From Chloroflexia bacterium SDU3-3 (GTDB lineage Bacteria > Chloroflexota > Chloroflexia > Chloroflexales > Roseiflexaceae): 64,000 nucleotides of DNA. How positions within the stretch are numbered: position 1 is the stretch's first letter; every line of letters begins with the position of its first letter. The translations under genes and the position numbers were made by a program. The notes beneath the pieces are model-generated. The model was not told the DNA's origin and did no database searches. It saw only the letters and a program-made list of their open reading frames with translations. Positions 9,792-18,580 of this stretch are shown piece by piece. Location: NCBI GenBank assembly GCA_009268125.1, contig WBOU01000014.1, positions 62,001 to 126,000 of the forward strand, read 5' to 3'.

Positions 9792-11855
9792 ATGACCACA
9801 GTCGCAGACCGGATCGCCGAGCTGCCGCCGGAGAAGCTGGCGCTGCTGCTCCAGCGCCTGAAGAAGCAGAAGGCACCGAGCACCAGCATCCCGCGCATCG
9901 CCCGCGAGGCGGCGAGCTTCCCGCTCTCGTTCACGCAGCAGCGCCAGTGGTTTATGGAGCAGCTGATGCCGGGGGCGATCTACAACGTCCCGCAGGCCAT
10001 CCAGATCACGGGCGCGCTGGATGTGGCCGCGTTCGAGCGCGCGCTGGCCGCCATCGCCCAGCGGCACGAGGCGCTGCGCACCACCTTCCGCGTGGTGGAT
10101 GGCCAGCCCGCCCAGGTGGTGGCCGACGCGCCGGTGGGCGGGGCCGCCCTGCCCACCATCGACCTGCGCGGCCTGCCCGCCGCGCAGCGCGCCGCCGAGA
10201 CCGCGCGGGTGGCCGCCGAGGAGGCCGCGCACCACTTCGACCTGGGCGCGGGGCCGCTGTGGCGCACCCTGCTGCTGCAAACGGGCGATCAGGAGCACAC
10301 CCTGATCATCACCATGCACCACATCATCTCCGACGGCTGGTCGATCGGCGTGGCCATGCGCGAGCTGGCCGCGCTCTACACCGCCTTCACCCAGGGCCGC
10401 GAGGCCAGCCTGCCCGAGCTGCCCATCCAGTACGTCGACTTCGCGGTGTGGCAGCGGGCCTGGCTGGATGCCGACGCGGCGGGCGGCTCGCCCGTGCAGC
10501 GGCAGCTGGCCTACTGGCGCGAGCAGCTGGCCGATGCCCCCGCGCTGCTAGCGCTGCCCTACGACCGGCCGCGCCCCGCCGCCCAGACCTACACCGGCGC
10601 GACGGCGCCCTTCCGCCTGCCCCGCGCCGCCGCCGACGCGCTGCGCGCCGTGTGCGACGCCGAGGGCGCGACCATGTTCATGGCGGTGCTGGCCGCGCTC
10701 GATCTGGCCCTGGCCCGCTACAGCGGGCAGGACGATATCTGCGTGGGCACGCCGATCGCCAACCGCACGCTGCCCGAGCTAGAGGGCCTGGTGGGCTTGT
10801 TCATCAACACGCTGGTGCTGCGCGTGCGCCTGGCGGGCGACCCCAGCTTCCGCGCGCTGCTGGGCCAGGTGCGCGCCACCGCGCTGGCGGCCTACGCCAA
10901 CCAGGATGTGCCCTTCGAGCGCGTGGTCGAAGCCGTCGAGCCGGAGCGCAGCCCCAGCTTCTCGCCGCTGTTCCAGGCCCTGCTGGTCTACACCGAGGCC
11001 GCCGCCGCTCAGGTTGAGCTGCCAGGCCTGACGCTGCGCCCGCTGCCGCTGCACAGCGGCACCGCCCAGTTCGATCTCTCGCTGTACCTGAGCGAGCTAG
11101 AGGACGGCGTGCAGGGCTACTTCGAGTACAACACCGACCTGTTCGACGAGGCCACCGTGGCCCAGCTGGCCGCCCACCTGCAGGAGCTGATCGCCCAGGC
11201 CGCCGCCGCGCCCGACCAGCCGATCTCGGCGCTGATGGCCGCCATCCCCGCCCAGAAGCTGGATGTGGTGGTGGTCTCGGCCTTCACCGCCGAGCCGCTG
11301 GCCGACTCGCTGGAGTTCTGGATGGACGAGCTGCACGTGCCCGCGCGCATCCGCTTCGCGCCCTACAGCCAGGTGTTCCAGCAGCTGCTCGACCCGCAGG
11401 GCATGCTGGCCGCCAGCCGCGAGGGCGTGGGCGTCGTGGTGCTGCGGCTAGAGGACTGGGTGCAGCACATCCAGGGCGGCGAGGCCGAGCTGCAGGCCCA
11501 GCTGGCCCAGAACGTGGCCGACTTTGTGGATGCGCTGGCCGCTGCCCGCGAGGCCGCCGACGCGCCATGCCTGGTGTGCGTCTGCCCGCCCTCCGAGGCC
11601 TTCGCGGCCCAGCCGGGCCGGGCCGAGCTGCTGGCGCGGCTGGATGCCCAGATCGCCGCGCAGTGCGGCCAGCTGCCGGGCGTGCGCCACCTGCACCACC
11701 AGCAGATGCTGGCGCGCTACCCACTGGAGGCCATCCACGACCCGCGCGGCGACGAGCTGGGCCATATCCCGTACACCACCGAGTTTTTCGCCGTGCTGGG
11801 CACCTGCATCGCCCGCGAGCTATGGGCGCTGCGCGAGGACGCCCAGCAGGGCTAG
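9792..11855 (+). CDS. Condensation domain fused to an FkbH-type N-terminal (SGNH-like) domain
   Basis: A 687-residue protein with no adenylation or carrier domain. Residues ~1-35 are the helical start often seen on NRPS proteins that dock to an upstream carrier. Residues ~40-475 are a condensation domain: [19 protein letters not shown], the catalytic HHIISDGWS (His176-His177), and the late DVPFERVVE. Residues ~492-680 resemble the N-terminal domain of FkbH-family proteins (SAFTAEPL, APYSQVFQQLLDP, VVLRLEDW, IPYTTEFF). In known proteins that domain normally precedes a HAD phosphatase and GNAT part, which are absent here but occur, degenerate, in the protein at 15167-18580. It stands at the head of a tightly spaced set of genes. 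It likely joins an acyl-ACP donor to an amine carried by a partner protein. Confidence 0.8.
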   Translation: MTTVADRIAELPPEKLALLLQRLKKQKAPSTSIPRIAREAASFPLSFTQQRQWFMEQLMPGAIYNVPQAIQITGALDVAAFERALAAIAQRHEALRTTFRVVDGQPAQVVADAPVGGAALPTIDLRGLPAAQRAAETARVAAEEAAHHFDLGAGPLWRTLLLQTGDQEHTLIITMHHIISDGWSIGVAMRELAALYTAFTQGREASLPELPIQYVDFAVWQRAWLDADAAGGSPVQRQLAYWREQLADAPALLALPYDRPRPAAQTYTGATAPFRLPRAAADALRAVCDAEGATMFMAVLAALDLALARYSGQDDICVGTPIANRTLPELEGLVGLFINTLVLRVRLAGDPSFRALLGQVRATALAAYANQDVPFERVVEAVEPERSPSFSPLFQALLVYTEAAAAQVELPGLTLRPLPLHSGTAQFDLSLYLSELEDGVQGYFEYNTDLFDEATVAQLAAHLQELIAQAAAAPDQPISALMAAIPAQKLDVVVVSAFTAEPLADSLEFWMDELHVPARIRFAPYSQVFQQLLDPQGMLAASREGVGVVVLRLEDWVQHIQGGEAELQAQLAQNVADFVDALAAAREAADAPCLVCVCPPSEAFAAQPGRAELLARLDAQIAAQCGQLPGVRHLHHQQMLARYPLEAIHDPRGDELGHIPYTTEFFAVLGTCIARELWALREDAQQG

Positions 11856-11867
11856 GGGAAACGAACT

Positions 11868-18100: not shown

Positions 18101-18580
18101 GCGTCGAGCGTGTTCAACCAGGACATGACCATGGATATGGTGCCGGTGGACTACGTGAGCGAGGCCATCGTGCACCTCTCGCTGCGGCCCGAGTCGCTCA
18201 ACCAGGTCTTCCACCTGACCAACCCCAAGGTGCCGCGCCTGGATGAGATCGTCGAGTGGTCGCAGAGCTACGGCTACCCCATCCGCCGCGAGCCATACGA
18301 GACCTGGCGCGCGCGGCTGAAGGTGGCCGCCGAGCGCTCGAACCAGAACGCCTCGTTCGCGCTGGTGCCCTTCCTGCCGCAGGATCTGAGCCGCCAGCAG
18401 CTGGGCGACCTGCCCTTTGACGCCAGCAACACGCTGGCCGGGCTGGCTGGCTCGGGCATCGCCTGCCCGCTGATCGACGAGACCCGCTTCCACGTCTACC
18501 TAGACTACTTCACCCAGAGCGGGTTCCTGCGCACGCCCCAGGAGGTTGGGGCGGTGCTGGAGGAGGCCGGGGTGGCCTAG
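15167..18580 (+). CDS. FkbH-like protein with degenerate HAD domain, fused to PCP and thioester reductase
   Basis: A 1137-residue protein that starts in the ATGA of the E2 stop. Residues ~25-225 are the FkbH N-terminal domain (ASFTAQPLAPYLG, GPYNQIVPQ). Residues ~230-385 align with the FkbH HAD phosphatase, but the DLDNT nucleophile motif reads VPDDV before LWGG, the SKN motif reads GDYAK, and the DDNP motif reads TASAA, so phosphatase chemistry looks lost. Residues ~410-555 keep the FkbH GNAT-like domain, including LTHHTSEFHLT, SDRLGDYGD, NCRVLGRNVE and RPTERNAV. A PCP follows (Ser678 in LGGHSILATQ), then an NAD(P)-dependent thioester reductase (~755-1130; TGGTGYLG, TSTLYVFG, YRQSK). No adenylation domain loads this PCP. 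The R domain should release an aldehyde or alcohol and is the only dedicated release domain in the locus. Confidence 0.85.
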   Translation: MSATPLPDGAARLRLRMRWDQIVGSGRPAQLRVAVLASFTAQPLAPYLGVALEDAAPAEIWVGPYNQIVPQCLSAESELAHFGPDLLVVWPRLEELWGGELPLDGDPAAQIDDAAALAEACLGAASRLGARLLFVLPAVPELRPLGLGDAGSPRAVSATAAAVRESLRGQLAGRQGVALLDAEDLVRTVGAARAYNRRMQAVARIPFSEEVFHLAGQRMARLLALSQRAAPRLLVIVPDDVLWGGSLAELGPSGVDVAEGGPGELHRQIQAFLLEQRRAGNRLAICGDYAKASLREVLARREMLLRREHLVGWQTDPRPCAALRALAEDTRTALADVVLITASAACATAVAAQFPEVALVQLPEDAAEWLAAFQASPVLDMPPRVAAPAPSPAAQPRAAKPSLADFLARLALKVEVAPAEPHELAHVVHLTHHTSEFHLTGEQYDQPALDAFLAQPGAECWLIRVSDRLGDYGDAGALLLRAESGTLEVATFLLNCRVLGRNVEYEVLRRLATIASERGCAQVRLLHRPTERNAVAGAFVRAVGGQPAPEGGASATLTPAQLAALAPQGQAPSSCGADLPAPSPSAVSPAARFLAARVARLGEDGARAVAERFASFQRGEQLLEAVQAYRRRSRPDMDVAYVAPRTPLEGQLADVWGEVLGLDRIGVRDNFFHLGGHSILATQLVMRLYDVLGIELPVRIFFETPTIESMAQAIDIVRRTGDDTAFIAEAPEYVKAEAVLDPSITAEGARPAEHTSDPRRIFLTGGTGYLGAFLLAELLRRTSATIYCHARARDEQDALARIAANLQHYGLWDEAQRHRLVPVVGDLAQPLLGLSEERFLELADLIDVIYHAGAITSFIYPYTTLKPTNVLGTQEVLRLASRIRLKPVHLTSTLYVFGPGDKHEDGGPMREDDIPEHVETMHIGYRQSKWVAERLLLLARERGIPVAIYRPSRIAGHSHTGACQTNDFVWRMIRACIDASSVFNQDMTMDMVPVDYVSEAIVHLSLRPESLNQVFHLTNPKVPRLDEIVEWSQSYGYPIRREPYETWRARLKVAAERSNQNASFALVPFLPQDLSRQQLGDLPFDASNTLAGLAGSGIACPLIDETRFHVYLDYFTQSGFLRTPQEVGAVLEEAGVA

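Follow-up and report, generated by a model that had tools for sequence, protein, structure and literature searches.

The 64,000-nucleotide stretch analysed here (the window; C14:62001-126000 of the 6.76-Mb genome of Chloroflexia bacterium SDU3-3, G000) carries six plus-strand genes encoding, in order, a condensation (C) domain fused to the N-terminal domain of an FkbH protein, C-FkbH(N); a free acyl carrier protein (ACP); three proteins related to the E1-alpha, E1-beta and E2 subunits of pyruvate dehydrogenase (PDH); and an FkbH protein, hereafter FkbH', fused to a peptidyl carrier protein (PCP) and a thioester reductase (R) domain. All positions are relative to the window, and the whole analysis is one of sequence comparison. 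A preliminary description had reported six tightly packed genes, the last four overlapping. The genes lie where it placed them and the packing is exactly as described: gaps of 12 and 15 bp, the second between the ACP gene and the E1-alpha gene downstream, are followed by overlaps of 4, 8 and 4 bp. Its domain assignments agree with the Pfam and NCBIfam matches (Table 1), and active-site signatures are kept in the C, ACP, E1, E2, PCP and R portions. The Pfam results list no separate row for E1-beta, since the mechanical list of open reading frames uses a longer frame (12134-14056).

Table 1. Features of the cassette and of the surrounding cluster (window positions)
Feature	Position	Strand	Evidence
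C-FkbH(N)	9792-11855	+	
Condensation domain of C-FkbH(N)	9918..11237	+	Pfam PF00668 348.8 bits; active-site HHxxxDG intact (HHIISDG, aa 176)
Lone FkbH N-terminal domain fused to C domain; without HAD, GNAT, PCP	11262..11831	+	N-domain tree and homologous C-FkbH(N) elsewhere
Free ACP, 74 aa	11868-12092	+	PF00550 22 bits; motif WNSLGH
E1-alpha-like thiamine diphosphate (ThDP) subunit, 312 aa	12108-13046	+	PF00676 (E1_dh) 161.9 bits
E1-beta-like subunit, 337 aa	13043-14056	+	NCBIfam PDH E1-beta 140.9 bits (below cut-off); PF02779 89 bits
E2-like protein, 373 aa	14049-15170	+	PF00364 40.8 bits; PF00198 117.6 bits
E2 lipoyl domain, lipoyl Lys in ESTKA	14100-14267	+	PF00364 40.8 bits
E2 acyltransferase domain, motif DHRVING	14490-15140	+	PF00198 117.6 bits
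FkbH-PCP-R	15167-18580	+	
FkbH' N-terminal domain	15251..15781	+	Best conserved part of HAD-dead clade, mean identity 40%
FkbH' HAD domain, catalytically degenerate	15782..16291	+	Motif losses; no TIGR01681 (HAD-IIIC) match
FkbH' C-terminal GNAT-like part, with Cys496	16379..16846	+	Cys496 invariant in 48/48 FkbHs
PCP of FkbH-PCP-R	17117..17308	+	PF00550 61.6 bits; motif GGHS
Thioester reductase (R) domain	17447..18529	+	TIGR01746 331 bits (cut-off 213); motifs GTGYLG, YRQSK
PKS module KS-AT-DH-KR-ACP, same cluster	2904..8552	+	Domain search; 38% over 1861 aa vs P. polymyxa PKS
Methyltransferase, probably same cluster; true start may be downstream of 8556	8556..9473	+	55% identical in P. polymyxa cluster
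NRPS/PKS C-A-PCP-C-A-PCP-KS-AT-KR-PCP and KS-AT-ACP-MT, probably same cluster	24523..39918	+	KS-AT parts 45-54% identical in other clusters
PKS, polyketide synthase; NRPS, nonribosomal peptide synthetase; A, adenylation domain; MT, methyltransferase.

Judged from its motifs, the HAD phosphatase of FkbH' is dead. Every catalytic motif has been lost: VPDDVLW stands in place of DxDxTLW, GDYA in place of SKNN and TAS in place of DDS, and the motif lysine is missing. The protein scores 129 bits on TIGR01686, under the curated cut-off of 146.65, and does not match HAD-IIIC (TIGR01681). Four such HAD-dead FkbHs were identified (72-129 bits on TIGR01686, no HAD-IIIC match), as against 281-282 bits and a TIGR01681 match for two intact FkbHs. 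The HAD motifs are broken in all four FkbHs linked to E1/E2 genes and retained in 44 of the 44 others compared, and no E1/E2 gene was found near any of 44 other FkbH loci searched (about 1.5 kb around most). In a tree of full-length proteins the four form one clade (support 97/99; 97% of bootstrap trees), with the intact FkbH of locus L008 nearest. Their conservation profile is inverted relative to that of intact FkbHs: identity within the clade is 40, 21 and 29% for the N, HAD and GNAT parts, the HAD part being the worst kept and bearing large deletions, while diverged intact pairs show 21, 42 and 36%, with HAD the best kept. The GNAT part is full length in the HAD-dead proteins, and D467, G473, C496, E504 and N533 are kept in all four copies, Cys496 being the sole cysteine that is invariant among the 48 FkbHs. 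FkbH enzymes make a glyceryl-cysteine thioester, and Cys496 presumably corresponds to the cysteine that carries it.

The preliminary description had seen two logics combined at this locus, thiamine/lipoyl chemistry and the loading of glycerate by FkbH. The pairing of E1/E2 with FkbH stands; the notion that FkbH still loads glycerate finds no support, the HAD motifs being gone in all linked FkbHs. Family membership would speak for a protein that still loads a glycerate-like unit while the trio serves a separate step, as would the motifs of the FkbH on contig C12 of the same genome and of most relatives, which mark them as glyceryl loaders. Loss of the nucleophile Asp, the Thr, the Ser-Lys and the DD, here and likewise in all E1/E2-linked members, renders this explanation very improbable, and FkbH' was rejected as a glyceryl loader on the loss of these motifs. 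As every FkbH found in linkage with E1/E2 has lost the motifs, the glycerate logic appears to have been replaced; a source of glycerate that was replaced, not supplemented, would be the best explanation of these sequences.

FkbH genes with intact HAD motifs occur in other settings. At L008 the gene lies beside an ACP gene in an exopolysaccharide locus. L025 (G302:C185), an exopolysaccharide locus that also encodes O-antigen ligase, glycosyltransferases and YfhO, has an ACP-FkbH pair whose members are 54% and 45% identical to their window counterparts; this FkbH may acylate the polysaccharide. The window ACP is 54% identical to the FkbH-adjacent ACP of L008/L025 and 33-43% identical to ACPs of E1/E2 loci. 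The C12 gene (L027, G000:C12:15519-17327) encodes a PCP-fused FkbH, and a C-A-PCP-C NRPS comes after it; this is probably an NRPS cluster of the usual glycerate-loading kind.

Three further clusters, from Actinomycetota and Bacillota, share ACP, E1/E2, HAD-dead FkbH and C-FkbH(N) with the window. Streptomyces sp. NBC_01136 has ACP, E1-alpha, E1-beta, E2 and FkbH in the exact window order, FkbH being a free-standing 514-aa protein without PCP, annotated "hypothetical protein". On plasmid p-YT9A of Paenibacillus polymyxa YT9 the order is ACP-E1-alpha-E1-beta-FkbH-PCP-R, and E2 and another ACP lie a short way upstream; matches to the PKS (over 1861 aa) and to the methyltransferase (55%) indicate that this whole cluster is related to the window's. 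In the actinomycete G562, E1-alpha-E1-beta-E2-FkbH-PCP is found about 25 kb away from a C-FkbH(N) followed by an ACP. Plasmid searches with E1-alpha and with FkbH returned the same two records among the best matches of both. The gene order, the losses and retentions of motifs, the clade structure and this co-occurrence in four clusters are direct observations. The comparison of gene neighbourhoods that the preliminary description proposed, for co-occurrence of ACP, E1, E2 and FkbH-PCP-R, thus has a positive outcome. Many E1/E2 trios do occur without FkbH, which might be taken to mean that the trio is a chance neighbour of FkbH genes; against this, the same genes recur in the same direction and near-identical order in two phyla, and all four HAD-dead FkbHs are E1/E2-linked while none of the others checked is, so that chance can scarcely be credited.

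The E1-alpha protein retains the motifs HRGHGH, GGSQH, GDG, NN and HSKGDD, and E1-beta retains the E and HSQ motifs. E1-alpha, E1-beta and E2 all score far under the NCBIfam equivalog cut-offs for housekeeping PDH (188 bits against 393.85 for E1-alpha, 141 against 321 for E1-beta). In a tree of 55 sequences, the window E1-alpha falls in a 34-row clade (support 100/99) separate from housekeeping E1; clade members are 56-67% identical to it, the P. polymyxa protein 48%. The clade includes three loci of quinocarcin (Qnc) architecture (L076, L096, L099), in which E1-alpha and ACP precede E1-beta and E2 fused in one frame, an order matching that suggested by the accession numbers of QncN, QncM and QncL. 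NRPS and PKS genes dominate the neighbourhoods examined. Such an E1-alpha is present in 17 of 395 sampled actinomycete genomes (matches at E < 1e-100) and in three sampled genomes of the window's own phylum, its own included; the search of genome contigs gave only two Nonomuraea loci and one weak match in a metagenome-assembled genome. No E3 gene is present in the window operon. E3 and LipA are encoded on other contigs of the same genome, which fits a host-supplied E3, as proposed for pepteridine (PMC5384830).

These data show that the trio with its ACP is of an already known kind, with the make-up of the Qnc and Scl systems, and not a new invention; the comparison with quinocarcin and naphthyridinomycin made in the preliminary description, ACP plus two-carbon (C2) transfer, was well founded. 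Its term "PDH-like" needs narrowing to a biosynthetic clade apart from housekeeping PDH. Because of this clade and the Qnc/Scl make-up, glycolyl appears more likely than acetyl as the unit transferred. A loader of 2-oxoacid type (PDH or acetoin) was our first reading, taken from the Pfam and NCBIfam names; it gave way to glycolyl on the E1-alpha tree and the SclQ/Qnc parallels. In its general form, that reading would have the trio use pyruvate or a branched 2-oxo acid as donor and load the ACP with acetyl or some other acyl group, as proposed for pepteridine. The Pfam/NCBIfam class is indeed that of PDH E1, and the pepteridine E1/E2-T-C system takes 2-oxobutyrate (PMC5384830). The grouping of E1-alpha with Qnc-architecture loci, away from housekeeping E1, argues against it, and acetyl-PCP would give the C domain no nucleophile; we consider a 2-oxoacid specificity quite unlikely.

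Related trios were seen in other contexts. A conserved actinomycete cluster (L022, L023, L077-L083, L097, L098), present in many genomes and devoid of FkbH, encodes an A domain, a weak C-like domain, PCP, E1-alpha, E1-beta and E2, in most cases followed by C-A-PCP and MFS. On pSCAT of Streptantibioticus cattleyicolor (L030) the trio lies within a modular type I PKS cluster, which suggests a C2 starter or extender for a polyketide. Nonomuraea soli has three E1-alpha copies; one match (L097, G400:C1:296503-297390) crosses a TAG, probably the end of the gene and not a true interruption. In Candidatus Endohaliclona renieramycinifaciens (L031), RenH and the E2-like RenI point to a C2-transfer set in the renieramycin cluster as well.

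Each of the four clusters has C-FkbH(N), its HAD reduced to a remnant or absent. A decayed HAD stretch still follows the lone N-domain in P. polymyxa and G562, whereas nothing follows it in the window; Streptomyces has C-FkbH(N)-PCP twice, with little HAD and no GNAT. The homologues outside the window are thus those of Streptomyces (L028, two), P. polymyxa (L029) and G562. An N-domain tree places all five lone domains (one each from the window, P. polymyxa and G562, two from Streptomyces) in the clade of NRPS-type FkbHs (100/99), several members of which have a PCP-linked architecture. By their sequences, the lone N-domain proteins look like worn-down C-FkbH-PCP modules. The N-domains of the HAD-dead FkbHs group with L008, apart from the lone ones, indicating that two FkbH lineages meet in each cluster. 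No single window protein combines C, a complete FkbH and PCP: the module is split, and its cis FkbH is an N domain only. The two consecutive C-FkbH(N)-PCP modules of Streptomyces (L028:11434-18090), without A, HAD or GNAT domains, precede another C domain, a tandem that would predict two C2 units in succession.

Taken together, we think it probable that the cassette serves to load and transfer a C2 unit, most likely glycolyl, for a split C-FkbH-PCP module that lacks an A domain and has been re-fed by a Qnc/Scl-type system. E1-alpha and E1-beta would move a C2 unit from a ketose phosphate to ThDP; the unit would pass oxidatively to the lipoyl arm of E2, and the E2 acyltransferase domain would deliver glycolyl to the free ACP, the host supplying E3 and lipoylation. 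FkbH' would take no glyceryl from bisphosphoglycerate; its C-terminal transferase part would use Cys496 to shift the acyl group from the ACP onto the PCP that follows in the same protein. With the lone FkbH N-domain as its tether, the C domain of the first protein would then link the upstream chain to the glycolyl hydroxyl as an ester, and the R domain would release the product reductively. That the FkbH transferase part might pass an acyl group to a PCP, as previously proposed, finds support here; we infer transacylation itself and its direction, as well as the identity of the acyl group, ester formation and docking by the lone N-domain.

The strongest rival, which we consider unlikely, holds that FkbH' is a structural remnant scaffolding PCP and R, the C domain taking glycolyl-ACP directly as in the Nap, Qnc and Scl systems. 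A dead HAD, an altered TNQFN motif in the GNAT part, an N domain that is the best conserved portion, as a docking part would be, and the existence of Scl/Qnc cassettes without FkbH all agree with it. They do not easily account for a full-length GNAT part that keeps the residues named above in all four copies, which come from three or more distant lineages, nor for the Streptomyces protein, which has no PCP to scaffold.

Several observations weigh against the transacylase proposal. The HAD-dead FkbHs being one clade, there are few independent events; the association with HAD loss may go back to a single event that all four inherited and that further decay followed. The TNQFN motif is present in nearly all intact FkbHs and altered in this clade, so that the transferase may be changed or weakened. 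Nap, Qnc and Scl use acyl-ACP without FkbH, and FkbH' is not strictly required. The likeness to these systems is one of described sizes, of domain make-up and of a clade shared with loci of Qnc architecture, and the E1-alpha tree does not show the four FkbH-linked E1-alphas to form one group. Finally, HAD-intact L008 nests among the HAD-dead FkbHs in the N-domain tree (82/11 and 99/91); this would mean repeated HAD loss and is not seen in the full-length tree. Long branches, above all that of P. polymyxa, leave tree details unsure.

The cassette belongs to a larger cluster, with a PKS and probably a methyltransferase upstream and probably an NRPS/PKS downstream (Table 1). In the PKS at 35836-39918 a methyltransferase domain follows the ACP and closes the protein, which is an unusual position.

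With slightly more doubt than belief, we suggest that these loci could define a trans-loading class for NRPS modules lacking an A domain, in which a phosphatase-dead FkbH acts as an acyl-ACP-to-PCP transacylase fed by thiamine/lipoyl chemistry, and C-fused lone N-domains (in tandem in NBC_01136) serve to mark and dock those modules to which C2 units are delivered. If the proposal is right, a module exchanges its building block by exchanging the supply chain: it gives up glycerate derived from bisphosphoglycerate, lets the phosphatase decay and receives ketose-derived glycolyl via the leftover transferase. It would give a new role to HAD-dead FkbHs, now annotated "hypothetical protein" or hidden in "thioester reductase" fusions, and would provide a bioinformatic signature by which NRPS/PKS products containing glycolate could be recognised. 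Engineering would gain a portable loading device that needs no A domain. To our knowledge, this set of genes has not been described before. Open-access text yielded no paper on FkbH with pyruvate dehydrogenase, or on FkbH with glycolic acid and a condensation domain. The preliminary description had likewise known of no described system with this set. The trio plus ACP alone has been described (PMC6335953); the part that appears new is the coupling of the E1/E2 cassette to a HAD-dead FkbH.

Our account of the NapB/NapD mechanism draws partly on general background, beside PMC6335953, PMC7570522 and PMC5384830. SclQ1 (ACP, 76 aa), SclQ2 (ThDP, 305), SclQ3 (338) and SclQ4 (lipoyl plus acyltransferase, 386), homologues of QncM/N/L, have been assigned to the formation of glycolyl-ACP from ketose phosphate; deletion of sclQ1-4 lowered production and glycolate restored it (PMC6335953). 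The same glycolyl-ACP role is given to NapB/NapC/NapD in the dnacin paper (PMC7570522). The window resembles Scl and Qnc (and NapC/NapB/NapD and dnacin DinT/DinU/DinS) in its ACP, ThDP subunit of about 305 aa, pyrimidine/TK-C subunit and lipoyl-acyltransferase, encoded by adjacent genes in an NRPS context without E3. Sizes are close (74/312/337/373 aa against 76/305/338/386 for SclQ1-4), and E1-beta and E2 are split as in Scl, whereas they are fused in Qnc and Nap. In those systems no FkbH has been described and acyl-ACP goes directly to a C domain; the window adds two FkbH elements, a lone N-domain and a HAD-dead protein. In pepteridine biosynthesis (Photorhabdus plu2792-2799) a PDH-like E1/E2 also primes a carrier protein, not CoA, and uses the host E3; there, however, E2 is fused to T and C, the donor is 2-oxobutyrate and FkbH is absent, while the window E2 ends after its acyltransferase domain. 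Renieramycin RenH and RenI are E1 (37-42%) and E2 (22%) homologues within an NRPS cluster, but RenH is an E1-alpha/beta fusion outside the window E1-alpha clade, and no FkbH was detected in that cluster.

On the FkbH side, the N-HAD-GNAT layout, the nearby free ACP and the transferase cysteine are those of the FkbH glyceryl transferase/phosphatases of tetronate and methoxymalonyl-ACP pathways (tetromadurin Mad7/Mad8), from which the window differs in its lost phosphatase motifs and in an acyl source that would be E1/E2 instead of 1,3-bisphosphoglycerate. Vioprolide and corramycin offer known examples of C-FkbH-PCP modules (PMC8949500, PMC10099666). As in the vioprolide, cystomanamide and corramycin modules, the window has C, an FkbH replacing the A domain, and PCP, and ester formation would be expected; unlike them, it is divided between two proteins: the FkbH in cis retains its N domain only, another, HAD-dead FkbH lineage takes over, and an R domain stands at the end.

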